Origin: Sphingomonas panacis
GTDB taxonomy: Bacteria; Pseudomonadota; Alphaproteobacteria; Sphingomonadales; Sphingomonadaceae
Direction of reading: 5' to 3'
Assembly (NCBI RefSeq): GCF_001717955.1
Contig: NZ_CP014168.1
Coordinates: forward strand, 2,079,501 to 2,143,500
Length of the DNA: 64,000 nucleotides
The number at the start of each line of letters is the position of its first letter. Position 1 is the stretch's first letter. Under the pieces are notes generated by a model. That model had not been told where the DNA came from. It did no database searches and worked only from the letters and a program-made list of their open reading frames with translations. The position numbers and the translations under genes were made by a program. Of this stretch, positions 20,747-39,832 are shown piece by piece.

Positions 20747-20782
20747 GATGATGTTCCCCTTTGGTCGTGCGGTGGTTGTGGT

Positions 20783-21481: not shown

Positions 21482-21584
21482 CGGAAATCTCCTTGGCGGA
21501 GCGGCCTTCGCTCCTGACCCGCACAAGATGCGTTCGATCGTGACTTGACGAAAGAGAAACAATTGCATTGTATCATTGCCGACA

Positions 21585-23104: not shown

Positions 23105-25036
23105 CTATTGTACCGCCATCGCGAACGGGCCGGCGGGCAGCGCGGCATCATCGACGAGATTGACCACCGGGAAGTCGGCCCATGCATAGCGCACGCGCGC
23201 GACCGGTTGGCCGTCGCCCGCCAGCATCACGCGATTACCGTCCACCGTCGCGGCGGCGTAGCGGCATGAGCCGGCCGCCGCCGCGCACAGTTCGAAGCCG
23301 GTCGCCTGCGCGGCGCTGCGGGTGTGCAGCGCGCCGACCACGCCCTTGAACGTCACGCTCGCACCGCCATTCGCGGCGCGCGTAACGCTCGCAACCTGCG
23401 GGCCGGAGGGCGGTGGGGTCGCGCCATAGGCGAGGCTGCTCATCGCGCGCGCGAGCCGCCGACCGACCTCGTGCTTCTCGCCCGGATGGATATCGAGCGG
23501 ATCGCCGAGGTCGATCGCCAGCGCGAGCGCGGTATGGCCATCGGTTTCGGCGACGCGGCGCTGGTCGTCGCGCACGCGCGCCCAGCCGCTTTCGCCGGGT
23601 GCGACCGCCGGTTTGCCGAACCCTGCGAGCGAGACGATCGCGAACGGCAGCGCGGGCGCGCCGAACTGCCCGCGCCAGTCGGCGATCAGCGCCTTCATGC
23701 GGTCGGCATAGCCGGGAATGTCGGTGTCCGATTCGCCCTGATACCAGGCGACGCCAGCCAGTCCGATGCCGCCGAGCGGGGCGATCATCGCATTGTAGAT
23801 CGTCCCCGCGCCGGTGATGTCGTCCCACGGCACGCGTGGCGAAGTGCCGCCCGCCTTCTTGGCCACCGCATAGCGCCAGCCTTCGCCGATCGGCACGGTG
23901 CCGCCATCGGCGAAGCTCAGCTTCATCGCCTCGGCCGGGCCGGGCAGCCCGCCGGTCGCGTAAGCGTTCTCGATGTTGATGGTGATGACGTTGCGCCCCG
24001 CGACGAGCGTGCCCGCCGGTACGGTATAGACGCGCGCATCCCAGCCGCCGCGCCCGCCGACCGGCTTGCCGTTGATCCACACCCGGTCGGCATCATCCGC
24101 CGGGCCGATCGCGATCATCGCGACCTGTTTGGCTTGCTCCGCCGTCAGATCGACGGTTTTTTGATACCACAACATGCCGAGATAGGTCTGGAGCGCGGGC
24201 ACGCCCCAATTCTCGTAGAAATCGACGCGCGGCACCGGCTGCCAGTCGAGCGCGGCATCGGGCTGCCACGGCTCATGACCGGGCATGTCGCCGCTCTGTT
24301 CGCGCCACCATGCTTCCCATGTCGCATTGGCGCTGCGCATCGCGGCGGCGGGGTCGCGCGCGTAGAGCTTGAGCAGATCGGCTTGCGCGCCGCGCCCGGC
24401 GGCGCGTTGCGCAGCGTCGCCCATCCACGCCGAGATCGACGAGCCGCCCCAGCTGGAATGGATCGCGCCGATCGGCACCTTGGCGGTCTTGCGCAGCTCC
24501 TGCGCCATGTAGAAACATGCCGCCGAGAAGCCGCCGGTGGTGAGCGGACCCGCCGACGCCCATGCCGGCTGCTGCGCGAGATGATCCTGCGCGACCGGCG
24601 CGGTCGCCTTGGCGATGGTGACGAGGCGAAGCTGGTCGTCGACCGGCGCGTGGATCGCGCTGCCGGCATCCTGCGCGCGCTCGACCGGCAATTCCATGTT
24701 GCTCTGGCCCGAGCACAGGAAGACGTCACCGACGAGCAGATCGTGGACTTGCGTGGTGCCACTCGGCGCGATCACCGACAGGTCATAAGGTCCGCCGGCG
24801 GGGAGCGCGGGCAGGGTGGCGCTGAACACACCGTCGCGGCCCGCGCGGGCCTGCGCGCTGTGGCCGGCCAGAACCAATGTCACCGGCTCGCCCGGCGTGG
24901 CGGTGCCGGTCACCACGACCGGCTTGCCACGCTGGACGACGGCATGATCGCCGATCAGCCCGTCGAGTTTCGGCGCGGCGAGCGCCGGCGTGGCGAGCGC
25001 GAGCAGGCTGGCGCCGGCCGCGATGGTGCGGAGCAT
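23105..25036 (-). CDS. Sialate O-acetylesterase-family esterase (probable acetylxylan esterase)
   Basis: The 643-residue exported protein has a signal peptide ending near ATPALAA, an SGNH-hydrolase nucleophile motif LCSGQSNMELP near residue 110, and the C-terminal catalytic pair region DIHPGEKHEVG near 520. A beta-sandwich insertion near residues 290-400 is typical of the family. Because it is the last gene of a xylan-type operon, removal of acetyl groups from xylan is more likely than from sialic acid. It starts 10 bp behind the GH3 gene. Confidence 0.88.
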   Translation of the reverse strand: MLRTIAAGASLLALATPALAAPKLDGLIGDHAVVQRGKPVVVTGTATPGEPVTLVLAGHSAQARAGRDGVFSATLPALPAGGPYDLSVIAPSGTTQVHDLLVGDVFLCSGQSNMELPVERAQDAGSAIHAPVDDQLRLVTIAKATAPVAQDHLAQQPAWASAGPLTTGGFSAACFYMAQELRKTAKVPIGAIHSSWGGSSISAWMGDAAQRAAGRGAQADLLKLYARDPAAAMRSANATWEAWWREQSGDMPGHEPWQPDAALDWQPVPRVDFYENWGVPALQTYLGMLWYQKTVDLTAEQAKQVAMIAIGPADDADRVWINGKPVGGRGGWDARVYTVPAGTLVAGRNVITINIENAYATGGLPGPAEAMKLSFADGGTVPIGEGWRYAVAKKAGGTSPRVPWDDITGAGTIYNAMIAPLGGIGLAGVAWYQGESDTDIPGYADRMKALIADWRGQFGAPALPFAIVSLAGFGKPAVAPGESGWARVRDDQRRVAETDGHTALALAIDLGDPLDIHPGEKHEVGRRLARAMSSLAYGATPPPSGPQVASVTRAANGGASVTFKGVVGALHTRSAAQATGFELCAAAAGSCRYAAATVDGNRVMLAGDGQPVARVRYAWADFPVVNLVDDAALPAGPFAMAVQ

Positions 25037-25046
25037 CGTCTCTCCC

Positions 25047-27740
25047 TTACAGCGGCAGCGGCGCGGACTGCGCTGCCTTGAAGCTCGCCGAGCGCACCGG
25101 CACGTCCGTTCCCGGCTGGCCCGAACCGACGCTGACCCGGTATTGGCCTGCCATCACCTGCCGCGTGCCATCGGCGGTGACCGCGCTGAGATCACGCGGG
25201 CTGAGATCGAACGTCACCTGACGCTTCTCGCCGGGCGCGAGCGTCACGCGCTGATAGCCGCGCAGCGCGATCTTCGGCGCACCGGGCACGTCGGGGAAGG
25301 TCAGATAGAGCTGAGCGACCTCGTCACCGGCGCGCTTGCCGGTGTTGCTCACCTCGGTCGTCACGCGCAGGCCCTGTTCGGCACCGCCCGCCGCCGGTGT
25401 CACGTCGAGCGGGGCGTAGGCGAAGCTGGTGTAGCTGAGGCCATAGCCGAACGGATACACCGGCGTGCCGGTGAAGTAGCGATAGGTCCGCCCCTTCATC
25501 GCATAATCGCCGAACGGCGGCAGATCGGCGATGCTCTTGTAGAAGGTCAGCGGCAGACGGCCGGCCGGATTGACCTTGCCCGACAGCACGTTGCCGACCG
25601 CGAGACCGCCGGCTTCACCCGGATACCATGCCTCCAGAATCGCGGCGGCATTGTCCTTTGCCCAGGCGAGGTTGATCGGGCTGCCGTTCATCGCGACGAC
25701 GACGATCGGCTTGCCGGTCGCCTTGGCGGCTTCGAGCAGCGCCTGCTGATCGGCCGGCAGATCGAGCGTGGTCTTGTCGCCCCCTTCGAAGCCCGGCACC
25801 TTGACCGGGGTTTCCTCGGCTTCGAGATCCGAGGTGAGGCCGACCGCGGCGACCAGAACGTCGGCATTGGCGGCGGCGGCGCGCAGATCCGCGTCGGGGT
25901 TGGTCGAGATACGCTTCCACACCAGATCGACCCCGCCGCCGACATGCGCGTCGGTGGTGACGGTGACCGGATAGCGGTGGCCCGCCTCCAGCGTCACGTC
26001 CTTGAACGTACCCAGGCTGCCATAGGCGCCCGCGACATCGACGAATGGCTTGCCGTCGAACATGAGGCTCCCCGAGCCGTTCATGCCGAGCCGGTAGGTG
26101 CCGCTCGCTGGCGGCACCAGGAATCCGGTCCAGACGGTCCGGTGGTGATCCGAAACCTTGGCGAGATCGAGATTGGCGCCCGAGACGCCGGCCTCGACGC
26201 GCGTGACGACCGGCTTGGTCGAGAAGCGCATCGCCTTGGTCACGTCCTTGAACGTATCCGGCGCGAAATATTTCGGCGGCGTCTCGACCGGGTTGTAATA
26301 GCGCGCGAGCAGGCCGGGTTTGCCGTCTGGCGCGCGGAGAGCCGTGGTCGGCACGCGGTCGCCATCGGTGAACGACCGGCCGAACGGAACCAAGGTCACG
26401 GTCGCGCCGGGCAGCGCCTGCTTCAGTCCGTCCACGATCGAGATCGGCGGCGCCGACAGTTCCGACGAGTAATTGCCGCGCAGCACGCGGGTGGCATCGC
26501 CGAGCGGCCCGATCACGGCGATCCGCAAGCCGGGCTTGAGCGGCAAAATGCCGGTGTTCTTGAGCAGCACGAGGCTCTTTTCGGACGCGGTCAGCGCGAG
26601 CGCGCGATGCTCGGGCGTGTCGATCTGCGAGACCGGCACGACGCTCGGGGTGCGCGCGCTGAGGCCGGACAGATCGCCATTGCGGTAGCGCGCCGAGAAC
26701 AGCCGGACGAGCGTGCGATCGACATCGCCTTCCGAGATCAGCCCGCGCCGCAACGCTTCATGGTAGCGATCGCCGAGACCGGCGGTGTCGTTGAGTGTGC
26801 GCGTGTGGCATTCGTTGTCGACGCCGACCTTGATCGCCGCCGCCACCGCCGATGCACCGTCGGGCGCGTATTTGTGGTTGTCGCTGATGTCCTTCACCGC
26901 GTCGCAATCCGACACGACATAGCCCTTGAAGCCCCACGCGCCGCGCAGATGGTCCTTGAGCAGCAGGTCGTTGGCGCAGGCTGGCTGGCCGTCGATGCGG
27001 TTGTACGCGCACATGATCGAGCCGGCCTGACCCTCGACGATCGCCGCGCGGAAGGCGGGGAGGTAGGTATCCTCGAGATCGTGCGGCGAGACGAAGACGT
27101 TGGCCGCGTGGCGAGTCGATTCGGGGCCGCTGTGGACCGCGAAGTGCTTGGGCGTGGCGATCACGGCGGGCAGATCGGGGTTCGGCCCCTGCATGCCGGT
27201 GACGAAGGCGACGCCCATATGCGCGGTGAGATACGGGTCTTCGCCGTAGGTTTCCTGGCCACGCCCCCAGCGCGGATCGCGGAAGATGTTGATGTTGGGC
27301 GACCAGGTATCGAGCCCCGTGCCGATCCGCCCGAGCCGCCCGGTCTGGCGGCCAAGCGTGTGGAGCGCGCGGACTTCGGTGCTGATCGTGCCGGCGACCT
27401 CATGCACCAGCGGCGTGTCGAACGTGGCGGCGAGGCCGATCGGTTCGGGGAAGTTGGTGGTCGGCAAGGTGCCGATCGCGCCGTGCAGCGATTCGGTCCA
27501 CCAATTGTAGGCCGGCACCCCGAGACGCGGGATCGCAGGGGCGACGTTGAGAAGCTGACCGACCTTCTCGTCGAGCGTCATGCGCGCGACCATCGCCGCC
27601 GCCATCCGGTCGGCCTCGGCACGGACATCGCCGGAGGAGGCGGGGCCGGCGGCAGGTGCCGTCTGCGCCTGCGCGGTGACGGCGGCGAGGCTGGCGCCGA
27701 GCAGCAGGACCGCCTTGGCGAACGGGAAGGACGATGCCAT
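25047..27740 (-). CDS. GH3 beta-xylosidase/beta-glucosidase with PA14 insertion
   Basis: The 897-residue exported enzyme has a signal peptide, the GH3 N-terminal domain with KHFAVHSGPE near residue 198, and nucleophile Asp278 in VVSDCDAV, a variant I associate with beta-xylosidases. A C-terminal GH3 domain is split by a PA14-like beta-barrel near residues 465-600, and a fibronectin-III-like end follows. It probably cleaves xylo-oligosaccharides in the periplasm. The ATG at 27740 was chosen because GAGG lies six bases upstream. It follows the halogenase by 30 bp. Confidence 0.92.
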   Translation of the reverse strand: MASSFPFAKAVLLLGASLAAVTAQAQTAPAAGPASSGDVRAEADRMAAAMVARMTLDEKVGQLLNVAPAIPRLGVPAYNWWTESLHGAIGTLPTTNFPEPIGLAATFDTPLVHEVAGTISTEVRALHTLGRQTGRLGRIGTGLDTWSPNINIFRDPRWGRGQETYGEDPYLTAHMGVAFVTGMQGPNPDLPAVIATPKHFAVHSGPESTRHAANVFVSPHDLEDTYLPAFRAAIVEGQAGSIMCAYNRIDGQPACANDLLLKDHLRGAWGFKGYVVSDCDAVKDISDNHKYAPDGASAVAAAIKVGVDNECHTRTLNDTAGLGDRYHEALRRGLISEGDVDRTLVRLFSARYRNGDLSGLSARTPSVVPVSQIDTPEHRALALTASEKSLVLLKNTGILPLKPGLRIAVIGPLGDATRVLRGNYSSELSAPPISIVDGLKQALPGATVTLVPFGRSFTDGDRVPTTALRAPDGKPGLLARYYNPVETPPKYFAPDTFKDVTKAMRFSTKPVVTRVEAGVSGANLDLAKVSDHHRTVWTGFLVPPASGTYRLGMNGSGSLMFDGKPFVDVAGAYGSLGTFKDVTLEAGHRYPVTVTTDAHVGGGVDLVWKRISTNPDADLRAAAANADVLVAAVGLTSDLEAEETPVKVPGFEGGDKTTLDLPADQQALLEAAKATGKPIVVVAMNGSPINLAWAKDNAAAILEAWYPGEAGGLAVGNVLSGKVNPAGRLPLTFYKSIADLPPFGDYAMKGRTYRYFTGTPVYPFGYGLSYTSFAYAPLDVTPAAGGAEQGLRVTTEVSNTGKRAGDEVAQLYLTFPDVPGAPKIALRGYQRVTLAPGEKRQVTFDLSPRDLSAVTADGTRQVMAGQYRVSVGSGQPGTDVPVRSASFKAAQSAPLPL

Positions 27741-27770
27741 GAAATACCTCACTTGGGGGGGATAGGGGAA

Positions 27771-29312
27771 TCAGATCGCAGGAAGCCCGTGGTCGATGAT
27801 CTTGCGGATTAGGTCGCGGTGGCGCGGCAGGCCCGCGCGCAGCCGCTGGGTTTGCACCGCCGCCTCGCGCCGGGTCTGCTCGGCGATCCGCGCCTCGGCG
27901 GAGAGCGCCTCGCGCGACACTTCGGTGCCGAACTGCATGCCGTAGAGCACGTACTGATAGCTCGCCGCCGGGAACACTTCATCGACCCGGTCGAACTCGT
28001 CGTGGAACCAGGGCGGCTGGTATTTCCACAGCGTCAGCAGGTCGCGGAGCCGATCGGGGATCGTGTCGGCGCGGACATTGTCGCGCCAGAAGTCGCTGTC
28101 GGTGCGCTTGGTCAGCACGTAATGCAGCTTGAGGAAATCGATGATCCGCCCCCAGCGATAATGCGTGGTGGCGTTGAAACGCGCGGCGATGATGTCCATC
28201 ACCTCGCGGCACACCGGCATCTGCTCGGCGATCAGCTTGGCCGACATTTCGATCAGCACGATCGCCGAGGCCTCGAGCGGTTCGAGGAACCCGGCCGCCA
28301 GCCCGACCGCGACGACATTGTTCTTCCAGAACGTCTCGCGGTGGCCCGAACGGATCTTGATCTTGCGCACGTCGGCGGTCGCGCCGACGGGGCCGAGATA
28401 GGCGCGGAGCTCGCGCTCGGCATCTTCGTCGGAGATGTGGCTGCTCGAATAGACGTGGCCCGTGCCGCGCCGGCTGGGCAGGCCGATGTCCCAAATCCAC
28501 CCGGCCGATTGCGCGGTCGAGATGGTGTGCGAGGCGATCGGACTGTCCTCGCTTTCATACGGCACCTGTATGGCGAGCGCGGTGTCGCAGAACAGCACGT
28601 CGGCGCAGCTCTTGAAGGGCACGCCGAGGGCCTTGCCGATCAGCAGCGCAGCGAAGCCGGTGCAATCGACGAACAGATCGCCAGCGATTTCGCCCGCTTG
28701 CTCGGTGACGACGCTGGTGATGTCGCCATTCTCGGCCTGGTTGACGCTGGTGACGTCGGCGAGGACGTGGCGCACGCCGAGCTTGGCGGTGCAGTGGCGC
28801 TGGAGGAAGCCGGCGAATTTGCCGGCATCGAGGTGATAGGCGTAATTGGCGACCGCGTCGAATTCCGGGGTGGCGATCGTCTTCGGCGCGAGGCCGTCGT
28901 CGCACAACAAACCCTGCGGGGTGACGGCGTCGCAAAAACTCTGGTCATGGCCGTCGGCGAGCCAGTGGGCGGCCATGTTCACGCGCTGGAAGCCCTGCGG
29001 CAGCATCAACGGGTGGTAATAGCCTTCGTCCACCTCGCCGGTGGTCCAGCGGGCGAAGCGTGCGCCCTGCTTGAACGACGCGTGGCATTCGCGGAAGAAA
29101 TCGGTTTCGGACACGCCCATCTTGGACAATGTCGTGCGCAGCGTCGGCCAGGTGCCTTCGCCCACGCCGATGATCGGGGTGGTGGGGGATTCGACCAAAG
29201 TGACGGTGAAGTCCGCCGGCATCCGCCCCTGATGTTTCGCGGCGATCACGCCCGCGGCAAGCCAGCCGGCCGTGCCGCCGCCGACGATCACGATGTTTCT
29301 GATAGGCTGCAT
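27771..29312 (-). CDS. FAD-dependent tryptophan-halogenase-family protein
   Basis: The 513-residue flavoprotein has the FAD motif IVGGGTAGWLA at residues 9-19, VGEGTWP near 50, and a Lys at position 81 (HASFKQGARF) that aligns with the catalytic Lys of PrnA/RebH. EPLEASA at 344-350 matches the active-site Glu region. The WxWxIP signature is altered to W272-I-W-D-I-G277. Members found beside TonB-dependent receptors are known to act weakly on free indoles, and their true substrate is unknown. It lies 59 bp behind the receptor, across an intrinsic terminator. Confidence 0.9.
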   Translation of the reverse strand: MQPIRNIVIVGGGTAGWLAAGVIAAKHQGRMPADFTVTLVESPTTPIIGVGEGTWPTLRTTLSKMGVSETDFFRECHASFKQGARFARWTTGEVDEGYYHPLMLPQGFQRVNMAAHWLADGHDQSFCDAVTPQGLLCDDGLAPKTIATPEFDAVANYAYHLDAGKFAGFLQRHCTAKLGVRHVLADVTSVNQAENGDITSVVTEQAGEIAGDLFVDCTGFAALLIGKALGVPFKSCADVLFCDTALAIQVPYESEDSPIASHTISTAQSAGWIWDIGLPSRRGTGHVYSSSHISDEDAERELRAYLGPVGATADVRKIKIRSGHRETFWKNNVVAVGLAAGFLEPLEASAIVLIEMSAKLIAEQMPVCREVMDIIAARFNATTHYRWGRIIDFLKLHYVLTKRTDSDFWRDNVRADTIPDRLRDLLTLWKYQPPWFHDEFDRVDEVFPAASYQYVLYGMQFGTEVSREALSAEARIAEQTRREAAVQTQRLRAGLPRHRDLIRKIIDHGLPAI

Positions 29313-29326
29313 GATCTTCCGATACC

Positions 29327-29357
29327 AAAAAAACGGGGGCGCCGGGAAGGCGCCCCC
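29327..29357 (-). terminator. Intrinsic terminator between the receptor and halogenase genes
   Basis: On the minus strand a perfect 9-bp stem (GGGGGCGCC and GGCGCCCCC, 29335-29357) is followed by seven T residues (29327-29333), a textbook rho-independent terminator. It sits between two genes that otherwise look like one operon, so it probably lowers downstream expression relative to the receptor. Confidence 0.88.
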
Positions 29358-29371
29358 GAGGTTGAGGAAGA

Positions 29372-32344
29372 TCAGAAGCGGAAGTGGGCGCCGAAGGTGA
29401 AGCGGCGACCATAATCCCACACGTCGAGCATCTGGTTCTTGAACCGCCCGTGCGTGCTCTGCTGCGCGTTGTTGACGTTGGTGATCTCACCGAACACGCT
29501 GAAGTGTGGCGTGATGTCGTAGCTGCTGCTGAGATCGATCTGCGTCTGGGCATTGACGAAGGTTGGTTCGGCGCCGAACGACCCGGTATTCTGGTTCTGC
29601 CCGAACTGGAGCAGATATTCATCGCGCCAGTTGACCGCAGCACGGAACTGGAAGCCGTTCTTGTCATAGAAACCGACGAAGTTCGCCGAGTTGGCCAAGC
29701 CCGTCACCGCGAAGCCGGTCTGCGAGATGTCGGCCTGGTCATACGGCTTGTTGGTGCCGACGAAGGTGGCGTTGGCGTTGAAGCCGAAGCCGCTGTCGCC
29801 GAACACCTGCTGCCATGCCACTTCGACGCCGCGCACCGTCGCGTCCGGGCCGTTGACTCGTGCCGTCACCGCGAAGCTCGCGGGTTGGCCGGTCGTAGGA
29901 TCGATCACGCCGTTGATCGTCTGCCGAGTCACGCCACCGACGATGAAGTTGCTGACGTTTTTAAGGAAGAAATCGACCGAGAAGTACGAGTTGCGCTGGT
30001 AATACCATTCCAACGCGGCATCGAAGTTGTCCGACAGATACGGTTTCAGATTGGGGTTGCCGCCGCTCGCCGTCAGTGCCCCGACGCGCTGGCCGCTGCC
30101 GACGCTCAACACCGGCGTGAGAAGGCTAAGGCCCGGACGGGTGAGCGTTCGCGAAGCATCGACACGCAGGATCAGCTTATCGGTTAGTTCGAGCTTGGCG
30201 TCCATGCTCGGCAGCAAATACGAGTAGTTGCTGCGTGTAGTGATGTTCTGCACTGCAGTGTAGCCCGTAGGGTCCGGGATCGACAACAGCGTTTTGTCGG
30301 TAGTGCTGGTGTTCAGCACCAGCGGCAGGCGACCCTGGCCTGTCGAGGTCAGATGCGTATTCTCGTTACGCACACCAGCGTTGAGGTGGAACGGCATGCC
30401 CGCCACTTCAGTCTGGAACGACGCGCTGAAGAACAGAGACCAGGTCTGTTCGTTGATGCGTTGGATGCTGCCCGGATCGACCTTCTGATCAAAGGTGCCG
30501 GTAAAGCCGGGGACCTGCGAATAGTTGAAGCCCGGGATATTTTTTGCTTGTGGATTGCCGAGGCCGGTCAGGAAGTTTTGGTAAGCGACCGGGCTGTACA
30601 TGAAGATCGAGGGAGGCAGTGACCCCTTAAAGCCGGGGATGAAGCCGTTGGTGCTGATCGATCCCTGATACAGGTTGGCTGGCAGCGGGCTGATGCCACC
30701 GCCCTGGCCCGAAGGGCCGCCGTAGCCGGAATAGGCTTGCCAGAAGTTGTTGGTGAAGGTGCTCGCGTTCTGGAACTCGAATGTATCGTCGATGAACTGA
30801 CCGCCCACCTTGAGGGTCAGGTCGTCCTGCTTCCAGGTCGCGGTCAGACGGCCCTGCTTGAGGCGGTCGGTGTTCTTCTGCGTCTGGTTGACGGTGACGT
30901 GCGAGCCGATCAGCCCGGTGTTGGCATAGTCCGCCTGATTGCCGTTCGGGCCGTAGCTGGTCAGCGATGGGAAGGCGTTGTTGCTGTTGCCGGTGATCGA
31001 CAGCCCGGTCAGCGTGCCGAGATTGCCGCCGTAGCCGATATCGCCGTTCTGCGAACCGATGTTGCCATCCGGATTGAGCCAGCTCTGGCCGTAGCTGACG
31101 TCGGCGTCGATGTTGAGATGCTCGGTCGCATCCCATTTCAGATTACCGCCGATCTGGTTGGTCTGAAGCACCTGCTTGTTGATTGCCGAGGTGAAATCGG
31201 TCGGCGTGCCGGCCTGAACGAAATTGGTCGCCTGGCCGTTCTTGTCGAGCGTGACGTTGCGCAGGGCGCCCTGGTTGAACCACATGCCGACGCCATAGGC
31301 GTCCGTCGTGATCGTTTGACGCGAGAAATTGTCATCGACCGTCAGCATCACGTTTTCGGATGGGTGCCACTGCAGCGCGATGCGCGCATCGACACGCTCG
31401 TCCTTGGTGTAGCTCTGCTCATAGCCATATTGCTGCGGGAAGAAGCCGACGACGCTCTTGATGTCCGACGGGCCGGCCCCTGCCGTGCCGGGATCGGAGG
31501 GATTGCAGGTCGCAGCGGTGCTGCCAGCGAGCTGGCACGGCGCGTAAAAACCGCCCGGCCAACCTGATACGAAAACCCGGTTCGTGGTAGTATCGTGGCG
31601 CGTGTAGATCGCGTCGGCGAGGACGCCGAGCGTATCGTTGGCGAACGTATCGCTGATCAGCAGGCCACCGGTCGGGACGACCTTGCCGGCACGATCCTGG
31701 ATCGAACCCGAGGCGCTACCCGCGATGCGGAAACCGGGGTGATCGAACGGCTTGGGGAATGCGATATCGACGGTCGCGCCGATCGAGTTCGACGACACCG
31801 CGACATCAGGCGTCTTGTAGACGCTCAGCCCGCCGATGAAGTCCGAACCGACGGTCGAGAAGTCGATCTGGCGTCCGCCGGTACCGGTCGAGATGCGACG
31901 GCCGTCATACAGCGTGGTGTTGAAGTCGCCGCCGAAGCCGCGCACGGTGATGCCGGTCGGCTCACCGCGCGCGCCGTTGCGCTGGATCGACACGCCGGGG
32001 AGGCGCTGAAGCGAGGCCGCGACGTTCGAATCCGGGAATTTGCCGATATCTTCTGCCGAGATCGCGTCGACGACGCCCGACGACGTGCGCTTGATGTCGA
32101 GGTTGCGCTGGAGCGAGCCGCGCAGACCGGTGACGATGATGTCCTGGGTCTCATCGACAGGCCGGCTCGAGCTGGGGCCGTTTGTCGGATCGGTCGCCGG
32201 TGCGGCCTGGGTGGCGGCGTCCGTCGTGGTGGTCGCGGTCTGCGCAGCGGCCGGGTTGGCGATCGTTAGCGCGATCAGGCTCGACGCACCGATAAAGCCG
32301 AACTTGCGGCCACGTGCGGACATGAATGTGATTGATGGTTTCAC
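29372..32344 (-). CDS. TonB-dependent receptor (Caulobacter/sphingomonad carbohydrate type)
   Basis: The 990-residue outer-membrane receptor begins with a long signal region (FIGASSLIALTIANPAAAQ). It has a TonB box-like ETQDIIVTGLRGSL near residue 70, the plug with GKFPDSNVAASLQRLPGVSI, and a 22-strand-type barrel ending FGAHFRF with the C-terminal aromatic. It should import xylan-derived oligosaccharides by energy from TonB-ExbBD. The GTG at 32344 is chosen because AAGGAGGGG stands six bases before it; an in-frame ATG at 32323 lacks such a site. Confidence 0.92.
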   Translation of the reverse strand: MKPSITFMSARGRKFGFIGASSLIALTIANPAAAQTATTTTDAATQAAPATDPTNGPSSSRPVDETQDIIVTGLRGSLQRNLDIKRTSSGVVDAISAEDIGKFPDSNVAASLQRLPGVSIQRNGARGEPTGITVRGFGGDFNTTLYDGRRISTGTGGRQIDFSTVGSDFIGGLSVYKTPDVAVSSNSIGATVDIAFPKPFDHPGFRIAGSASGSIQDRAGKVVPTGGLLISDTFANDTLGVLADAIYTRHDTTTNRVFVSGWPGGFYAPCQLAGSTAATCNPSDPGTAGAGPSDIKSVVGFFPQQYGYEQSYTKDERVDARIALQWHPSENVMLTVDDNFSRQTITTDAYGVGMWFNQGALRNVTLDKNGQATNFVQAGTPTDFTSAINKQVLQTNQIGGNLKWDATEHLNIDADVSYGQSWLNPDGNIGSQNGDIGYGGNLGTLTGLSITGNSNNAFPSLTSYGPNGNQADYANTGLIGSHVTVNQTQKNTDRLKQGRLTATWKQDDLTLKVGGQFIDDTFEFQNASTFTNNFWQAYSGYGGPSGQGGGISPLPANLYQGSISTNGFIPGFKGSLPPSIFMYSPVAYQNFLTGLGNPQAKNIPGFNYSQVPGFTGTFDQKVDPGSIQRINEQTWSLFFSASFQTEVAGMPFHLNAGVRNENTHLTSTGQGRLPLVLNTSTTDKTLLSIPDPTGYTAVQNITTRSNYSYLLPSMDAKLELTDKLILRVDASRTLTRPGLSLLTPVLSVGSGQRVGALTASGGNPNLKPYLSDNFDAALEWYYQRNSYFSVDFFLKNVSNFIVGGVTRQTINGVIDPTTGQPASFAVTARVNGPDATVRGVEVAWQQVFGDSGFGFNANATFVGTNKPYDQADISQTGFAVTGLANSANFVGFYDKNGFQFRAAVNWRDEYLLQFGQNQNTGSFGAEPTFVNAQTQIDLSSSYDITPHFSVFGEITNVNNAQQSTHGRFKNQMLDVWDYGRRFTFGAHFRF

Positions 32345-32667
32345 AGCACTCCCCTCCTTGAAAAAGTTTTTCGTCGGCATTGCCGCTGTCGCATCGTTGG
32401 CGAAAGCGGGGTTCACCCCATTCGAAGCCGCATCCTGGCCGGATCATCCGCCCGGCTGTGGAATCAACTCCGTCTGTGTCGTGGTGGTAACGCTACCAGA
32501 ATCGTTCTGCAAGCGCTTTTTGTAGGAGCACATAAAGCGCGACCGATGGCTTGGCCGGGGGCGGCACGCCGTTTATGCAGCGATACCACGCAGACCGAGG
32601 GATGCCGCCGAGCGGGCGAATCGCGAGCGGGGCGATAGCGATATAATGATATAGGGAGACGGGTGAC
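32345..32667. other. Divergent control region between receptor and SapC genes
   Basis: This 323-bp gap holds the receptor's Shine-Dalgarno sequence, a promoter with an overlapping LacI-type operator at 32484-32512, and a TATAAT at 32642-32647 that may serve the plus-strand SapC gene, although no good -35 box precedes it. No further gene is evident. Confidence 0.6.
32484..32512 (-). promoter_or_regulatory. Proposed receptor promoter with LacI-type operator
   Basis: On the minus strand TTGCAG (32507-32512) and TACCAC (32484-32489) are separated by 17 bases. The operator TGGTAACGCTACCA (32485-32498, plus-strand reading) covers the -10 element. It resembles the published Xanthomonas xyl-box TGGTAGCGCTAACA, recalled from memory. 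A LacI-family repressor bound here would block transcription until the inducer arrives. Confidence 0.65.
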
Positions 32668-33354
32668 GTGCCCACGTGGGAAGTTCTCAACAGCCAGGTC
32701 CATGCCACGCTGAGCATCGCCGCACCGTCAGTCGACACACGGCTGTTCGTTCAGGTCGTCGCCGCCGAATTCGAAGCGGCGGCCGCGCGGTTCCCGATCC
32801 TGTTCACCAAGAATGCCGAGACCGGCGCCTTCTTCGCGGGCGCGATGCTCGGCTTCAAACCCGGCCAGCCGTTGTTCGCCGACTCGCGCGACCGCATCGA
32901 CGCGGAGCGGCTGTTCGATGTCGAGCGCGAGGGCTTCTACGTGTCCGACGACTCGATCGTCATCGACCGCGATCATCCGCGTTTCGGCGGGGCGGACGGT
33001 AAGCCGGTATTCGATTGGGAGGGCAAGCCCGACGAGCCGCTGCGCCGCGTGCAGCGCGCGCTCGCGCAACTGAGCGTCGGGCTGGACGCGACCGACCAGT
33101 TCATCCGCGCCTGCCTCGACCTCAAGCTGATCGAGCCGATCGACATGACGTTCCGCTTCGATGACGGCGAGCAGCTCGCGCTTGAGGGTCTGTACACGAT
33201 CAGTCGCGATGCGCTCGGTGCGCTCGACGATGCCGCCGCGCTCGATCTGTTCCGGCGCGGCTGGTTGCAACCCGCGTATGCCGTGATCGGCTCGCTCCAG
33301 CATGTGCCGCGGCTGGCGCGGCTCCACAACGATCGGCTGGCCGAGGCCGCGTGA
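32668..33354 (+). CDS. SapC family protein
   Basis: The 228-residue soluble protein has no signal peptide and carries the SapC-family pattern: an early HATLSI, FPILFTKNAETGAFFAGAML near residue 42 and ERLFDVEREGFYVSDD near 82. The name comes from S-layer literature, but most members sit beside TonB-dependent receptors and have no known role. The GTG at 32668 follows GGGAG. Its TGA overlaps the GTG of the cupin-like gene, so the two are translationally coupled. Confidence 0.9.
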   Translation: MPTWEVLNSQVHATLSIAAPSVDTRLFVQVVAAEFEAAAARFPILFTKNAETGAFFAGAMLGFKPGQPLFADSRDRIDAERLFDVEREGFYVSDDSIVIDRDHPRFGGADGKPVFDWEGKPDEPLRRVQRALAQLSVGLDATDQFIRACLDLKLIEPIDMTFRFDDGEQLALEGLYTISRDALGALDDAAALDLFRRGWLQPAYAVIGSLQHVPRLARLHNDRLAEAA

Positions 33355-34352
33355 TCGAACGAGACGGCCCGCTCGACCGCGCGACGTTCCTCGCCGGGAT
33401 CGCGCCGGCGTGCGAGCCGGTCGTCCTGCGCGGGCTGTGCGGCGAGTGGCCGGCGACGCGGGCCGCCGCCGAGTCGCGCCAGGCGCTGTTCGCGTGCCTG
33501 GGGGATTTCGATTCGGGGCAGGTCGCTGAGGCGTTCGTCGGCGATGCCGGCATCGCCGGACGCTATGATTATGCGGCCGATCTCGACGGCTTCAACTTCG
33601 TTCGCGAGGCGATGCCGCTCGGCGCGGCGCTCGCGCGGATCGGCGCGGCGGCGGATACGCCCGGTGACGCGTCGATCTATGTCGGTTCGCTGCCGGTCGA
33701 GGCCTTTCTACCCGGTTTCGAGCGTGAGCATCGGCTCGCCGCGCTGCCCGATGCGGCGGTGCGGCAGCATGTCTGGATCGGCACCGCCTCGAGCGTCGCC
33801 TGCCATTACGACACGTTCGATAATTTCGCCTGTGTCGTGGCCGGGCGGCGGCGCTTCACGCTGTATCCGCCCGACGCGATCGGCGATCTTTATGTCGGGC
33901 CGATCGACTTCACGATGGCGGGCCAGCCGACCAGCCTCGCCGCCGGCGCGGCGCCTGACGATCCGCGCTACCCGCGCTTCGCGACCGCGCGGGGGCGGGC
34001 CATCACCGTCGATCTCGAACCCGGCGACGTTCTCTACCTCCCAAAGCTGTGGTGGCATTCGGTCGAGGCGACCGCGCCGTTCAACATGCTGGTCAATTTC
34101 TGGTGGGATGAATTCGCAAGCGGCTCCGACGCGCCCTATACGAGCCTGCTGCTCGCGATGATCGCGATCTCCGAGCGGCCCGAGCGCGAGCGCGCGGCGT
34201 GGCGTGCCTATTTCGACCATTATGTGTTCCGCGGCCGAGGCCATCCGCTCGCGCATCTGCCCGAGGCGAAGCACGGCGCGCTCGGCCCGCTTGCGCAAGG
34301 CAATTACGGCCGCATCCGCGCGCAGGTGATGCGGTGGCTGCGCGGCGGCTGA
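33351..34352 (+). CDS. Cupin-like/JmjC-type Fe(II)- and 2-oxoglutarate-dependent protein
   Basis: The 333-residue protein belongs to the cupin-8/JmjC group. The metal triad is visible as H152-x-D154 (CHYDTFDN) and H236 (LWWHSVEA), and RRRFTLYPP supplies the usual cofactor-contacting stretch. Relatives hydroxylate proteins or small molecules. It is translated through a GTGA overlap with SapC and sits opposite the halogenase arm, so a shared substrate such as the receptor or its ligand is an inference. The start is GTG at 33351. Confidence 0.88.
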   Translation: MIERDGPLDRATFLAGIAPACEPVVLRGLCGEWPATRAAAESRQALFACLGDFDSGQVAEAFVGDAGIAGRYDYAADLDGFNFVREAMPLGAALARIGAAADTPGDASIYVGSLPVEAFLPGFEREHRLAALPDAAVRQHVWIGTASSVACHYDTFDNFACVVAGRRRFTLYPPDAIGDLYVGPIDFTMAGQPTSLAAGAAPDDPRYPRFATARGRAITVDLEPGDVLYLPKLWWHSVEATAPFNMLVNFWWDEFASGSDAPYTSLLLAMIAISERPERERAAWRAYFDHYVFRGRGHPLAHLPEAKHGALGPLAQGNYGRIRAQVMRWLRGG

Positions 34353-34370: not shown

Positions 34371-34388
34371 TGCGATAGCGTTATCGCA
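34371..34388. terminator. Near-palindrome between convergent cupin-like and GH51 genes
   Basis: TGCGATAGCGTTATCGCA can form a 7-bp stem and overlaps the GH51 stop codon. It could be a weak bidirectional terminator. Its reverse complement contains TAACGCTA, the core of the two proposed operators nearby, so a regulatory role is a second possibility. Confidence 0.4.
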
Positions 34389-35952
34389 GCGCCAGCACCG
34401 CGACCGATTTGGGCGGCAGCACGATGCGCAGCCCCTTGGCGGTCTGTGTCGCGGTGATCGGGGCGGGGGCCACTGTGTCGGGCGCGGCGAAGCTGTTGAC
34501 GCTATCGACCCGTGGCGCGGTCAGAACCTGCCCGCTGCCCTGCGAGACGCTGGCGCCGGCCACGTCGAGGACGATCTCCGCCGGGCGGTTCGGATCGACG
34601 TTGGTCGCCGACACCCAGAGCTGACCGCCGGTATCGCGCGCCGCGACGGCATCGACCTGCGGCATGCTGATGGTGCCATGCGTATAGGTGGCCGAACTGT
34701 AGGCGAGCGGCACGTAGGTGGCGTCCTGGAACGGCAGGTACATCCGGTAGACGTGGTAGGTCGGCGTCAGCACCATCTTCGGCCCGTCGGTCAGGATCAT
34801 CGCCTGCAACACGTTGATCATCTGCGCGATATTGGCGACGCGCACGCGATCGGCATGGCGCATGAAGATGTTGAGGTTGATCGCGGCGAGGATCGCGTCA
34901 CGAAGCGAATTCTGCTGTTGCAGGAAGCCGGGGTTGCTGCCCGGCGTCGGCGCCAGCCACGCGCCCCATTCGTCAACTACCAGCGCGATCTTCTTGCCCG
35001 GATCGTAGCGGTCCATGATCGCCGATTGCTTGACGATCAGATCGTCCATGCCGCGCGTCTCCTTGAGCAGCCGCGCGTAATCGTCCTCGCCGAAGCCCGT
35101 GCTCGCCATGCGCGGCGGCCACCCGCCGACGCTGTAGCTGTGCAGCGACACGCCCTCGATGTCCCAGCTCCACGCCTTGCTGGCCCACGCCTTCATCACC
35201 GCTTCGGTATAATCGCCCTTGTCGGCATCCCAACCGACCGCGATCCGCTTCATCTGGTCGGTGGTCTTTTGCGCCGGATTGCCGTTGCGCGAGAAATGGC
35301 TGAACAGCTTCATTTGTTCGACATAATGATCGGGCGACATCGCGCCGCCGCAACCCCAATTCTCGTTGCCGAGGCCGAGGTACTTGACCTTATAGGGTGC
35401 CGGATGGCCGTTGGCGGCGCGCTCCTTGGCGAGCGTGGTCGGCTGGTCGGTGGTCATATATTCGAGCCACCTGCTCGACTCTTCGACGGTGCCCGAGCCG
35501 ACGTTGACCGAGACATAGGCCTCGGCGCCGATCTGGCCGAGGAAATCCATATATTCCTCGGTGCCGAAGCTGTTCGGCTCGGGCACGCCGCCCCAGTTCG
35601 CATTGACCGTGACGGTGCGCTTCGTCTGCGGGCCGATGCCGTCGCGCCAGTGATATTCGTCGGCGAAGCAGCCGCCCGGCCAGCGCACGTTGGGCACCTT
35701 CAGCGCGCGCAAAGCGCGCACGACATCGCTGCGGATGCCGCGCACGTTGGGGATCGCCGAGGCCTTGCCGACCCAGATGCCGCCATAGATGCCGGTGCCG
35801 AGATGCTCGGCGAACTGGCCGAACACGTCGCGGTCGATTCTGGGGCCAGGCTTGGTTGCTTCTACGCGGACGATCAGCGGCGCGTCGGCGGCAAGCGCGG
35901 GCGTCGCAGTCGACAGCAGCAGCGCGGCGACGGTGCAGGCAAGGCGTTTCAT
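34381..35952 (-). CDS. GH51 alpha-L-arabinofuranosidase, exported
   Basis: GH51 enzymes remove alpha-arabinofuranosyl side groups from arabinoxylan. The 523-residue protein has a signal peptide ending near ATPALAA, the acid/base Glu197 in GLGNENWG, and the nucleophile Glu328 in VVDEWGAW. VRWPGGCFADEYHWRDGIGP is the expected N-terminal barrel motif. It is 15 bp behind a GH43 gene on the same strand and likely shares its transcript. Confidence 0.94.
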   Translation of the reverse strand: MKRLACTVAALLLSTATPALAADAPLIVRVEATKPGPRIDRDVFGQFAEHLGTGIYGGIWVGKASAIPNVRGIRSDVVRALRALKVPNVRWPGGCFADEYHWRDGIGPQTKRTVTVNANWGGVPEPNSFGTEEYMDFLGQIGAEAYVSVNVGSGTVEESSRWLEYMTTDQPTTLAKERAANGHPAPYKVKYLGLGNENWGCGGAMSPDHYVEQMKLFSHFSRNGNPAQKTTDQMKRIAVGWDADKGDYTEAVMKAWASKAWSWDIEGVSLHSYSVGGWPPRMASTGFGEDDYARLLKETRGMDDLIVKQSAIMDRYDPGKKIALVVDEWGAWLAPTPGSNPGFLQQQNSLRDAILAAINLNIFMRHADRVRVANIAQMINVLQAMILTDGPKMVLTPTYHVYRMYLPFQDATYVPLAYSSATYTHGTISMPQVDAVAARDTGGQLWVSATNVDPNRPAEIVLDVAGASVSQGSGQVLTAPRVDSVNSFAAPDTVAPAPITATQTAKGLRIVLPPKSVAVLALR

Positions 35953-35967
35953 CGGGAGACCTCGTCG

Positions 35968-37962
35968 TCAGGGCAGGATACGGAAGCGCGCCAGATCGGC
36001 GTTGTCGGCGGTTGGCCCCGGGCTGTCGGCGCGAAGCGCGCCGGTGGCGGGATCGACATGGAGATAGCGGCTGGTGGCGAGCGACATCAGCACCGCGCCG
36101 CCGCTGAGGCTTTCCATCCACTGGAAGCTCTGTCCCGGTGAATCGGCGCGCACCGGTTGCAGCGACACCGCGCCGTCCGCCGCTACCGTCAGCGCTTTGC
36201 GGCCGCTGAGCAACGCCACCCGACCGAGCTTCCGGTCGGCAACCAGCAACGGCGCCTGCAACAGCGCGGCGGTGCGATCCGAACCGAGCGGGCGCAGCGT
36301 GATGCTCTTGCCAAAGGGGATCGTCGGGCGGCTTTCGGGCCGGCCTTCGGTAACGCCGACGCTGGCGAAATCGGCGAAACCACCCGCCGCGCTGTGCTGG
36401 TTATAGGCGAACAGCCCGGAGCGGACGCCCTGGAAGGTTAGCAACTGATAGACCGTCGTGAAATCGGGGCCGAGATCGGTGAAATGGGTGCCATCGGTCG
36501 AATAGCTGAAGCGCGCCTGCTCGGTATCGAAATCGCACGCCGCGCGCAGCCACAGGTGTGACGCGCGAACCGGTGCGCTCGCGATGCGGCCGCCGTTTTC
36601 GTCGAAACGCACGATGCTCAGACCGTTCGCGCCACGTTCGACGCCAAGCCATGCATAAGGGCGGTTGAGCAACGCCAGTCCAGCAACGTCACCTACTGCG
36701 AGCCCGCTCGCATCGAGTTCGGCGGTGATGGTCGATTGCGGGCCGATCGCGCGCTGGGTCAGCGTGTTGCGCGCCGACAGGAAATCGCTGGCGGGGGCGG
36801 TGTGAAGCCGCAGCGAGCCGGGCCGCTCGGTCAGCGACCAGCGTGCCGGATCGGGGACGTGGTTCCATTCCCAGACATTGGCGAGCGCGCCGTCGAAGCT
36901 GTCGCTGCGCTGATAGGGTGCGCGCGGCGCCGCCGCCGAAGCGATCGGCTTTACCCAGGTGCGCGGGCTTCGGCCGAGATTGCCGGGCAGGCCGAAATAG
37001 GGCCAGCCGTCCTTCCACGTCACCGGCGACAGCGCGGTCAGCCGGCCGACCGAATTGCCCTCGAACATCGACCAGCCCCACCAGTCACCCTTCGGGGTCT
37101 GGATGATGCCGCCCTGATGCATCGACATCGCATCGCGCAGTTTCGGGTCGGGCGGCAGGATCGTCGCCAGATCCTTGTTGCCGCGCAGGTGATAGCCCTT
37201 GGCGAGGCCGAAATCCTCATGCTCGCTGATCGACGGGTTGATTTCCCACGGCCCGAGCGGCGATGTGGCGCGCGCGGCGGGCATGCGGAAGCTGCCGGAA
37301 TATTCGGCGGTGGTGATGTAATAGGTCTTGCCGAACTTGTAGAAGTGCGAGCCTTCGCCAAGCCCGGTGCCCTTCTGCGTGATGATCCGCTCGCTGCCCG
37401 GCACGATGTCCGTCAGGCTGGCGTCGAGCTGCGCGAGGTGGAGTTCCTGATAGCCCCAGACGACGTACGCCTTGCCGTCGTCATCGAACAGCACCGACAG
37501 ATCGTGGAAGGTCCGCTTCATCGGCGTGCGCGTCCACGGCCCCTTGGGGGATTTGGCGGTGAACATCTGCGTCATCGCGTGGTTGACGTTGCTGAAGATG
37601 TAGAAGGTGCCGTCGTGATAACGGAAGCTCGGCGCCCAGATGCCCTGGCCGTAGATATTCTTGCCGTCCTCCAGCCGGTATGCCGGGCCGAGATCGAGCG
37701 TGTCGAGCGCGTAGCCGACGAAATCCCAGTTCACCATGTCCTTCGAATGGAGGATCGGCAGGCCGGGCATGGCGTGCATGGTCGTGCCGGTCAGGTAGAA
37801 ATCGTCGCCGACGCGGATCATGTCGGGGTCGGAGAACTCGTCGTAGAACAACGGGTTGGTGTAGGTGCCGTTGCCGTTGTCGGCGGTCCAGGTCGGGCGC
37901 TCCGACGCGATGGCGGGGGTGGCGACGAGCGCCAGCGCGATCAGGCTTGCGAACGATTTCAT
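35968..37962 (-). CDS. GH43 glycosidase with C-terminal beta-sandwich and trefoil-like tail
   Basis: The 664-residue exported enzyme has a signal peptide and a five-bladed GH43 domain with catalytic Asp in EFSDPDMIRVGDDFYLTG near residue 47, the pKa-modulating Asp in DLSVLFDDDG, and the acid Glu in GEGSHFYK. A concanavalin-like domain (CBM91 type) follows near 370-560, and a further 100-residue stretch resembles a beta-trefoil. It is likely an arabinofuranosidase or xylosidase. The ATG at 37962 follows GGGAG. Confidence 0.88.
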   Translation of the reverse strand: MKSFASLIALALVATPAIASERPTWTADNGNGTYTNPLFYDEFSDPDMIRVGDDFYLTGTTMHAMPGLPILHSKDMVNWDFVGYALDTLDLGPAYRLEDGKNIYGQGIWAPSFRYHDGTFYIFSNVNHAMTQMFTAKSPKGPWTRTPMKRTFHDLSVLFDDDGKAYVVWGYQELHLAQLDASLTDIVPGSERIITQKGTGLGEGSHFYKFGKTYYITTAEYSGSFRMPAARATSPLGPWEINPSISEHEDFGLAKGYHLRGNKDLATILPPDPKLRDAMSMHQGGIIQTPKGDWWGWSMFEGNSVGRLTALSPVTWKDGWPYFGLPGNLGRSPRTWVKPIASAAAPRAPYQRSDSFDGALANVWEWNHVPDPARWSLTERPGSLRLHTAPASDFLSARNTLTQRAIGPQSTITAELDASGLAVGDVAGLALLNRPYAWLGVERGANGLSIVRFDENGGRIASAPVRASHLWLRAACDFDTEQARFSYSTDGTHFTDLGPDFTTVYQLLTFQGVRSGLFAYNQHSAAGGFADFASVGVTEGRPESRPTIPFGKSITLRPLGSDRTAALLQAPLLVADRKLGRVALLSGRKALTVAADGAVSLQPVRADSPGQSFQWMESLSGGAVLMSLATSRYLHVDPATGALRADSPGPTADNADLARFRILP

Positions 37963-38007
37963 GCGTGTCTCCCGGAAGCTCTTAGAGCGTCGTGACATCA
38001 AACAGCT

Positions 38008-38173: not shown

Positions 38174-39832
38174 TTAACGCCGCAGCCCCTGCGCGAACGG
38201 GCCGATCATCGTGCCGACGAACCCGCCAGCGGTCGCGGTGCTGAGGTTGGTGGCATCGACCCCGGCGGCGACCGTCGTCCACGCCTTGCCCTGCGATACC
38301 GCGAAATCGTAGCGGCCGCCGTGGGCGGCGATGCGCAATTGCACCGGGCCTGCCGCGATCGGACGCTCCGCCACGGTGACGCCGTCGCGCGGCTCCTGCT
38401 TGCCGGCGCGGCGCGCGACGCGGACGAAGGTCTTGCCGTCGTGGCGGGTCAGCGCGATCGTCAGGAAATACTCGTCGTTCTGGAGCGCGGCGAGACCTGC
38501 CATCTCGCCCTCGCGCGGCGCGAAGCTGAGCGCGGTGGTGACGGTCGCGTCGGCATGCTGCTGGCGGCGCGCGACAAAGGCGGGGCGGCCGAAATCGCCG
38601 AGTCCGTCGTGACCCGGCGTCAGCGACAGCGCGCCGCCGGCAGGCTGCACCGGCGCGGTGCGCATCGCCATCCATTCGCGGCCGAGGCTAGGCGCGGTGA
38701 AATCGTCGCGCACGGTGAAGCTGCCGGTCAGCGGCGTCGTGCCGGCGGGGGCGGCGGGGAGCGGCGCCTTGACCAAGGTCGGCACCGGCTTGCCGCGATC
38801 GAGGATCACCGGCCAGCCGTCACGCCACGTCACCGGCAGCAGGAAGGTCTCGCGCCCGGCGTTGTAATAATCCTTGGCGTAAGGCCGCGTGCCGAGGAAC
38901 ACCGACCACCAGCGCCCGTCGGGCAATTGCACCAGATCGGCATGGCCGGTCGCGCTGATCGGCGCGGCGCGACCGGCGGGCAGATCGCGCTGGGTCAGGA
39001 TCGGGTTGATCGAGGGCGGGGCGGGACGATACGGCCCATCGACCTTGTCGGCTCGGAGGATCACCTCGCTGTGGTTGACGCTGGTGCCGCCCTCCGCCGC
39101 CATCAGATAATATGTGCCGTTGACCTTGTAGACGTGCGGCCCCTCGATCCAGACCGGCTTGGCGGCGGGATCGATGCCGCCATCGACGATCATCTTGGCG
39201 TTGCCGAGCATCTTGAGGGCGACCGGATCGAACTGCTCGATCCAGATCGCGCGGTGGCCCGAGTAGCGCGGCTCGCCTTCGGGCGCGCGGTTGTTGACGA
39301 TCCACGCGCGGCCATCGTCGTCGAAGAACATCGAGGGATCGATCCCCTCGACGGTCTTGAGCCAGACCGGATCGGACCACGGACCAGCGGGGTTGGTCGC
39401 GGTGATGACGAAATTGCCGCCGCAATCGACGCAGGTGTTGACGATGTAGAACCGGCCGTTGTGGTGGTTGATCGCAGGCGCGAACACGCCGCGGGACATC
39501 GCGAGCGTGCCGAAATCGAGCTGGCCGGGGCGGTCGATCGCGTTGCCGATCTGCTTCCAGTGGATCAGATCGCGGCTGTGGAACACCGGGATGCCGGGGA
39601 ACCACGAGAAGGTCGAGGTGACGAGATAATAATCGCTGCCGACGCGCAGGATGCTGGGATCGGAATAGAAGCCGGCGAGGATCGGGTTGCGATACTGGCC
39701 CGCCGGGGCGGCGGGGCCATCGGTGCCGCGATATTCGACCCAGTCGAAGCGCGCCTTTTCAGGTGCCGGCGCGGCCGACACCAACGTCGCTGTCGCAAGC
39801 GCGCCGACCATCGCCAGGATAGTGCTCTTCAT
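38174..39832 (-). CDS. GH43 beta-xylosidase-like enzyme, exported
   Basis: The 552-residue enzyme carries a signal peptide, a GH43 five-bladed propeller with catalytic Asp in GFYSDPSILRVG near residue 57, GIDPSMFFDDDG with the modulating Asp, and the acid Glu in WIEGPHVYK. A C-terminal beta-sandwich (CBM91-like) starts near 370. This domain layout fits beta-xylosidases and exo-acting arabinan or xylan enzymes. It is the first gene of a GH43-GH43-GH51 arm and has an operator-bearing promoter in front. Confidence 0.9.
   Translation of the reverse strand: MKSTILAMVGALATATLVSAAPAPEKARFDWVEYRGTDGPAAPAGQYRNPILAGFYSDPSILRVGSDYYLVTSTFSWFPGIPVFHSRDLIHWKQIGNAIDRPGQLDFGTLAMSRGVFAPAINHHNGRFYIVNTCVDCGGNFVITATNPAGPWSDPVWLKTVEGIDPSMFFDDDGRAWIVNNRAPEGEPRYSGHRAIWIEQFDPVALKMLGNAKMIVDGGIDPAAKPVWIEGPHVYKVNGTYYLMAAEGGTSVNHSEVILRADKVDGPYRPAPPSINPILTQRDLPAGRAAPISATGHADLVQLPDGRWWSVFLGTRPYAKDYYNAGRETFLLPVTWRDGWPVILDRGKPVPTLVKAPLPAAPAGTTPLTGSFTVRDDFTAPSLGREWMAMRTAPVQPAGGALSLTPGHDGLGDFGRPAFVARRQQHADATVTTALSFAPREGEMAGLAALQNDEYFLTIALTRHDGKTFVRVARRAGKQEPRDGVTVAERPIAAGPVQLRIAAHGGRYDFAVSQGKAWTTVAAGVDATNLSTATAGGFVGTMIGPFAQGLRR

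Follow-up and report, generated by a model that had tools for sequence, protein, structure and literature searches.

Gene layout of the locus

The window analysed here is a stretch of 64,000 nucleotides from Sphingomonas panacis (contig NZ_CP014168.1), and the system in question is a group of four genes at positions 27771-34352, in which a TonB-dependent receptor (TBDR) is accompanied by a halogenase homologue, a SapC family protein and a Cupin_8/JmjC-like protein. This grouping had been proposed in a sequence-only reading of the window, and it is confirmed by profile scores far above the curated cut-offs, which place each protein in its family:

27771..29312, minus strand: flavin-dependent halogenase homologue (PF04820), 513 amino acids; 416.6 bits against a cut-off of 21
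29372..32416, minus strand: TBDR (TIGR01782) with Plug and barrel, open reading frame of 1014 amino acids, start provisional; 557.8 bits against 310
32668..33354, plus strand: SapC family protein (PF07277), 228 amino acids, GTG start; 159.6 bits against 28.9
33351..34352, plus strand: Cupin_8/JmjC-like Fe(II)/2-oxoglutarate oxygenase homologue (PF13621), 333 amino acids; 202.5 bits against 27.4

The receptor and, downstream of it, the halogenase homologue are encoded on the minus strand, while the SapC and Cupin_8 genes, whose reading frames overlap by 4 bases, are transcribed away from the receptor on the plus strand. The halogenase open reading frame opens at 29420, but its relatives fit a start at 29312 (MQPIRN). 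The Cupin_8 protein also matches JmjC_2, at 38 bits against 22.

Conservation of the grouping

Relatives of the window halogenase were taken from a contig scan, of which the best 80 of 176, 69-98% identical, were kept; for 74 of the 80 the title gives a sphingomonad or Caulobacter as the source. TBDR is present in 78 of these 80 loci, SapC in 76, Cupin_8 in 75 and all four genes in 75. Among the five incomplete loci, four end at contig ends (L133, L153, L163 and L176), and in L154, from a gammaproteobacterial metagenome-assembled genome, Cupin_8 was not found within 21.5 kb. The Caulobacter loci hold all four genes in six cases of seven, the seventh ending at a contig end. The earlier expectation of similar groupings in sphingomonads and Caulobacter is borne out by these loci.

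Genomes were also drawn from the class (144) and from the family (119), and each was scanned for SapC and PF04820. SapC is present in 34/144 class genomes and 118/119 family genomes, and PF04820 exceeds its cut-off in 46/144, many of them weak partial matches, and in 83/119. SapC-centred stretches were collected from the 33 rows of the class that fall outside the family, from 3 further rows of the window's own genome and from 61 family rows, which gives 97, or 98 with the window; the 61 family rows were mostly picked from genomes carrying two or more SapC, and this part is not a random draw. The four genes were scored in the stretches with profiles built in this analysis. TBDR, SapC and Cupin_8 occur together in 26/98 SapC loci, including 2 of the 33 class stretches outside the family, and the halogenase accompanies them in 24 of the 26 (not in L034 and L057). 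Their order is TBDR>SapC>Cupin_8>halogenase in 12, TBDR>halogenase>SapC>Cupin_8>halogenase in 5, the divergent window order in 4 (window included) and other orders in 5. A TBDR lies in all 26 of these stretches, against 9 of the 72 SapC loci that have neither enzyme. SapC thus has one branch linked to receptors and another that stands alone, and the supposed link of SapC to TBDRs holds for the cassette branch (26/26) and fails for the family as a whole.

The genome of the window has two PF04820 proteins, four SapC, three Cupin_8 (one weak) and 16 TIGR01782 receptors over the cut-off. Both halogenases sit with TBDR, SapC and Cupin_8, the second cassette having the order TBDR>SapC>Cupin_8>halogenase. 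By our own arithmetic, with each neighbour within 5 kb and independent placement, such a coincidence would arise with a chance of about 1e-6 for one cassette and about 1e-12 for two, so the grouping in this genome is more than chance. The third SapC (L008:5014-11328) has a cytochrome b561 gene on one side and, on the other, genes for a TonB protein and for a different kind of TBDR, and the fourth lies in a stretch without TBDR, halogenase or Cupin_8. The stand-alone SapC of this genome (L007:6137-10535) has a DEAD-box helicase and a FAD-linked oxidase gene in its neighbourhood, and open reading frames like these neighbours accompany SapC in about 28-31 of 71 non-cassette loci that were compared, almost all from the same family.

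Co-variation of the four genes

Complete sets of four genes were available in 98 of 101 Cupin_8 loci, and the Mantel correlations of their distances are 0.84-0.92 for the six gene pairs. The GH3 gene (GH, glycoside hydrolase) of 58 window-type loci served as a yardstick, which is weakened if some of these GH3 genes are paralogues. In these loci r is 0.77 for receptor and SapC, 0.71 for receptor and halogenase, 0.50 for receptor and Cupin_8, 0.86 for SapC and halogenase, 0.62 for SapC and Cupin_8 and 0.61 for Cupin_8 and halogenase. The four genes travel together, although correlation is no proof of contact.

The genes could merely be co-inherited or co-regulated with the receptor and share no function, and they are indeed mostly read together as well as inherited together. 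This is the least probable of the accounts considered: the four genes are found together again in other orders and beside other sugar genes, and GH3 correlates with the four genes at only 0.36-0.56, against 0.50-0.86 among the four in the same 58 loci.

Partial sets

Halogenases without SapC were examined in 40 loci, one per genome, taken from high-scoring family rows outside SapC cassettes. With broader TBDR models, 33/40 have a TBDR at most 800 bp from a halogenase; a first TBDR model had given 29/40 within 600 bp. The chance of 33/40 would be 4e-21 if 15% of genome places were that near a TBDR and 9e-12 if 30% were, both percentages being guesses. In halogenase loci from other families (L104-L109) a TBDR is adjacent in 1/6. 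Lack of any association of the three families with receptors would have counted against the supposed modification system; TBDRs accompany them in 75/80 relatives' loci, in 26/26 SapC loci with Cupin_8 and in 33/40 SapC-free halogenase loci.

Several combinations occur. TBDR and halogenase stand without SapC or Cupin_8 in most of L190-L229, and with Cupin_8 in L191, L224, L226 and L227. TBDR, halogenase and SapC are found together in some of the relatives' loci and on plasmids of Catenovulum, Pseudoalteromonas and Niveispirillum; TBDR, SapC and Cupin_8 in L034, L057 and L268; TBDR and SapC alone in L008 and L045. Across all partial sets TBDR is the sole constant partner. This constancy of the receptor is the main argument of this analysis for the proposed roles, which would be directed at the receptor and work singly. 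A single obligate system is not needed, because none of the three genes depends on the full set to be found with a receptor.

Sugar genes around the sets

The genes that flank the group in the window were identified by profile matches:

23105..25036, minus strand: SASA-type carbohydrate esterase
25047..27752, minus strand: GH3 beta-xylosidase-like enzyme
34381..35952, minus strand: GH51-type alpha-L-arabinofuranosidase
35968..38001, minus strand: GH43 enzyme
38174..39832, minus strand: second GH43 enzyme

By these matches the neighbours are an arabinoxylan-type set. CUT loci (carbohydrate utilization loci containing TBDRs) of Xanthomonas (PMC1790865) are likewise formed by a TBDR beside carbohydrate-degrading enzymes, and the window TBDR, with GH3, GH51 and GH43 next to it, lies in a locus of this type. 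The accessory trio is outside the CUT definition, and the words halogenase and SapC are absent from that text. In the 80 relatives' loci GH3 is found in 64, GH51 in 37, SASA in 32 and the two GH43 genes in 16 and 15.

The sugar context outside the window type was sampled by scanning 20 large neighbours from 18 loci. GH3 combined with an ExoP-type domain was found in 7 loci and with Fn3 in 2, GH1 being present as well in one of the latter; GH67, a LacI regulator and a sodium symporter were found in one locus each, and in the remaining 6 loci the scanned proteins are non-sugar proteins or have no match. The TBDR, halogenase and SapC genes stand beside an agarase on the Catenovulum plasmid, beside alpha- and beta-galactosidase on the Pseudoalteromonas plasmid, and beside GH2 and galactonate genes on the Niveispirillum plasmid; Cupin_8 does not appear in the gene tables of these three plasmids, which are incomplete. 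The full set of Sphingobium RAC03 is accompanied by GH9, GH43 and GH3, and in Hirschia GH68 lies next to halogenase and TBDR, SapC not appearing in the gene table. The sets occur in arabinoxylan-, beta-glucan-, agar- and galactoside-type loci, whatever the sugar.

The enzymes might act on the ligand or on another small molecule. Candidates would be the sugar taken up, an aromatic attached to it (ferulate, for instance), and a halogenated compound, either signal or antibiotic, whose production would accompany the supply of that sugar. Such a role would suit the arabinoxylan-type locus of the window type, which has esterases, and characterised PF04820 enzymes act on small indoles, phenols or pyrroles (PMC7336383). 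It is nevertheless unlikely. The role on ferulate or another linked aromatic, which the sequence-only reading had offered, is disfavoured because the sets also adjoin beta-glucan, agar and galactoside genes; the partial sets have only TBDR in common; and no genes for non-ribosomal peptide synthetases or polyketide synthases were seen among the proteins scanned, which cover some of the neighbours.

Halogenase, Cupin_8 and SapC proteins

The catalytic Lys and Glu of the halogenase are kept in 98/98 cassette halogenases, the window included, and the iron-binding His, Asp and His of Cupin_8 in 97/98 cassettes each; the catalytic roles of these positions are presumed here. The Lys is described as catalytic for flavin halogenases in PMC7336383. 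In the window halogenase both Trp of WxWxIP are present, as in 98/98, and Pro is replaced by Gly, a change seen in 74/76 window-type halogenases, while Pro is kept in 19/22 others. This sequence we take to be a flavin-halogenase motif. The solved structure nearest to the window halogenase is 2pyx (548.6 bits), against 258.9 bits for 6frl and 233.4 for 6y1w. The window protein may halogenate a substrate.

The Cupin_8 protein is FIH-like by profile and has the HxD...H signature, and its nearest solved structures are FIH, JMJD7 and JMJD5; it may hydroxylate protein residues. SapC has a confident predicted structure, with a predicted local distance difference test (pLDDT) of 93.8. A sequence search matched no solved structure at E 1, and comparison of the model with solved structures gave no fold match, although the fold may be a known one. 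In a crude look at hydropathy, made with no predictor, no clear export signal was found in halogenase, SapC or Cupin_8, and their N-terminal hydropathy is lower than that of the receptor and two GH enzymes; they are therefore taken as cytoplasmic.

In arrays that also hold intact halogenases, eight halogenase-like genes are without the catalytic Lys and are possible pseudo-enzymes, two of the eight still matching PF04820:

L208:9544-11064
L205:10658-12160
L224:10628-12121
L227:11038-12570
L193:10600-11712
L214:7377-8555
L203:8262-9518
L191:8127-9746

The loss of this residue implies that at least these eight do not act as halogenases. It would fit an explanation in which the three proteins aid the making, sorting or regulation of the receptor with no covalent change: SapC would be a holdase or adaptor, and the flavoprotein and the oxygenase would sense redox, oxygen or 2-oxoglutarate and tune the receptor level. 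The SapC that neighbours a TonB gene and a TBDR of a different type is in keeping with this as well. Catalytic residues kept in 97-98 of 98 cassettes would, however, be unneeded by a pure scaffold, and this explanation is considered rather unlikely.

Stem-loop between receptor and halogenase

Two non-coding elements of the locus are as follows:

29334..29358, minus strand: GC-rich stem-loop of 10 pairs, then seven T, located after the receptor stop and ahead of the halogenase start
32485..32498, plus strand: palindrome TGGTAACGCTACCA, operator-like, in the divergent intergenic region

A gap between receptor stop and halogenase start was obtained in 75 of the 80 relatives; it measures 58-105 nt in 74/75 and 752 nt in L142, which was left out (n=74). 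At least 9 pairs form the main stem in 72/74 relatives (window 29334-29358 and L110-L189), and the first 8 nt of its 5' arm take 52 different forms. The folding z in the gaps has a mean of -3.1, with 61/74 below -2, against -0.8 and 11/75 in coding control stretches; this shuffle control covers the window-type gaps. Where the gene order differs, stems of this size (at least 9 pairs) follow the receptor stop in 13/13 cases before SapC and in 11/11 and 8/9 before halogenases.

The label of terminator, clear in the window, was rejected for the element in general: T-rich criteria apply in only 8/75 and 4/74 relatives, so it is called a stem-loop here. A run of at least four T lies somewhere in 33/40 gaps inspected. 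The stem-loop probably separates the transcript levels of receptor and enzyme, and setting the two levels apart would favour the regulatory explanation given above. The palindrome, with at most 2 mismatches, has 2 matches in the window against 0.66 expected, and its exact form occurs in 8/73 relatives.

Relation to known systems

BrvH (6frl) and Xcc4156 (6y1w) belong to the same Pfam family as the window halogenase. As described in PMC5945002 and PMC7336383, they brominate indole and have open active sites, for which peptide substrates have been proposed; native substrates are unknown for BrvH and three Xanthomonas halogenases (PMC7336383), and a comparison of such halogenases with MibH is also found in PMC5945002. 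A second halogenase gene adjoins BrvH, like many arrays here. The window enzyme differs in being nearer to the unpublished structure 2pyx and in having Gly for Pro in WxWxIP.

QhpG and LodB are presumably flavoproteins that mature other proteins. The window halogenase has weak similarity to their NCBIfam models (28.5 and 19.5 bits against cut-offs of 240 and 400) and, being far below these, is no member of either family. The protein hydroxylases FIH, JMJD7 and JMJD5 share their iron ligands with Cupin_8, but the likeness amounts to about 55 bits and covers the core region only. The SapC family presumably takes its name from the Campylobacter S-layer SapC, and this name would hint at an S-layer role, the likeness being in name only; the window SapC has no visible export signal.

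The grouping is robust and no description of it was found in the literature searched, which leaves most subscription journals outside. The words 'halogenase' and 'SapC' are absent from PMC2996990, 'TonB' and 'SapC' are absent from PMC8269204, and PMC3838355 describes a pigment cluster without the four-gene grouping. A receptor-directed role is plausible.

Proposed role and search for an acceptor residue

The three genes would serve one subfamily of sugar receptors in the outer membrane as an accessory set. Cytoplasmic modifying enzymes, the halogenase homologue and the FIH-like oxygenase, would act on the receptor prior to export, each being able to work without the other, while SapC, as an adaptor, would hold or present it; the identity of the transported sugar would be irrelevant, the receptor itself being what matters. 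FIH hydroxylates proteins and QhpG modifies a Trp in a protein. This is the explanation favoured here, tentatively, as a possible one. The conserved grouping, the intact catalytic residues, the co-varying distances, the different sugar contexts and the partial sets are observed, whereas the receptor as substrate, the chemistry, the pre-export step and the SapC role are inferred. From the conserved modification system on the receptor that had been supposed earlier, the conserved grouping stands, and an action on the receptor is consistent with it. A more specific form, in which the two enzymes put halogen and hydroxyl marks on sugar receptors and SapC, with a new fold, presents the precursor, is distinctly unlikely.

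Candidate acceptor residues were sought in the receptors, those below 700 amino acids being dropped from the column comparison. One residue stands out:

31280..31282, minus strand: codon of the conserved receptor Trp of the W-F-N motif, position calculated from alignment

This Trp is W388 when numbered from the upstream stop and W366 in the model, whose mean pLDDT of 72.5 is moderate and which places it at the end of a long barrel strand, presumably on the outer side. Conservation reaches at least 97% at 106 columns of the 101 other cassette receptors, and one of these columns is Trp. The Trp of W-F-[N/S/D/E] is present in 101/102 cassette receptors, L057 having Tyr. The genome of L057 (G251) is outside the 86 genomes with a halogenase match; this receptor deviates at 4/106 conserved columns, and Tyr at the Trp column would have a chance of about 0.04. 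The Asn after Trp388 was rejected as the oxygenase site: 11/85 window-type receptors read WFS despite Cupin_8 in their loci. A plug Arg, found in 102/102 and 29/29 linked receptors against 6/14 controls, was judged uninformative.

Several observations weigh against modification of the receptor. Loss of Trp388, as the halogenation site, was predicted beforehand for G264, the only genome without halogenase among 80 further Cupin_8-bearing genomes searched, yet G264 retains it; the Trp therefore follows cassette receptors and not the halogenase, and it was rejected as the halogenation site. Halogenase-free cassette genomes numbered only two in this analysis. No aromatic column was found that is common to all halogenase-linked receptors and different in the controls. 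That no receptor residue tracks the halogenase is the strongest result on this side. In addition, 2/26 cassette-branch loci (L034 and L057) lack the halogenase, the correlated distances are also explained by joint inheritance, and an unfolded receptor crosses the cytoplasm quickly, so that modification there is demanding.

The retention of the Trp in G264 and in nearly all cassette receptors could instead mean that the W-F-[N/S/D/E] motif is recognised by SapC as a specific partner of these receptors, with the two enzymes in a secondary part. The same Trp occurs in three SapC-linked receptors of bacteria from other orders, whose neighbouring sugar genes differ, and W-F is read at its column in 0/14 control receptors. 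Shared receptor ancestry could account for the Trp, however; the model puts it at the outer end of a strand, whereas no export signal is visible in SapC; L057 has SapC yet Tyr; and the SapC-free receptors of L192 and L208 have W-F close by. SapC as a specific partner that recognises the motif is very improbable.

If modification of the receptor by the accessory set is correct, receptors would be the native substrate of many sphingomonad and Caulobacter 'tryptophan halogenases', the native-substrate question for such halogenases would become a mass-spectrometry experiment, and nutrient uptake would gain an unknown layer of control.

Other observations

Genes for an alpha/beta hydrolase and a pirin are adjacent at window positions 19919-21751, upstream of the sugar locus. 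Among the relatives' loci, the Cupin_8 of L115 and the GH3 of L145 are each in two separate pieces in the assemblies.

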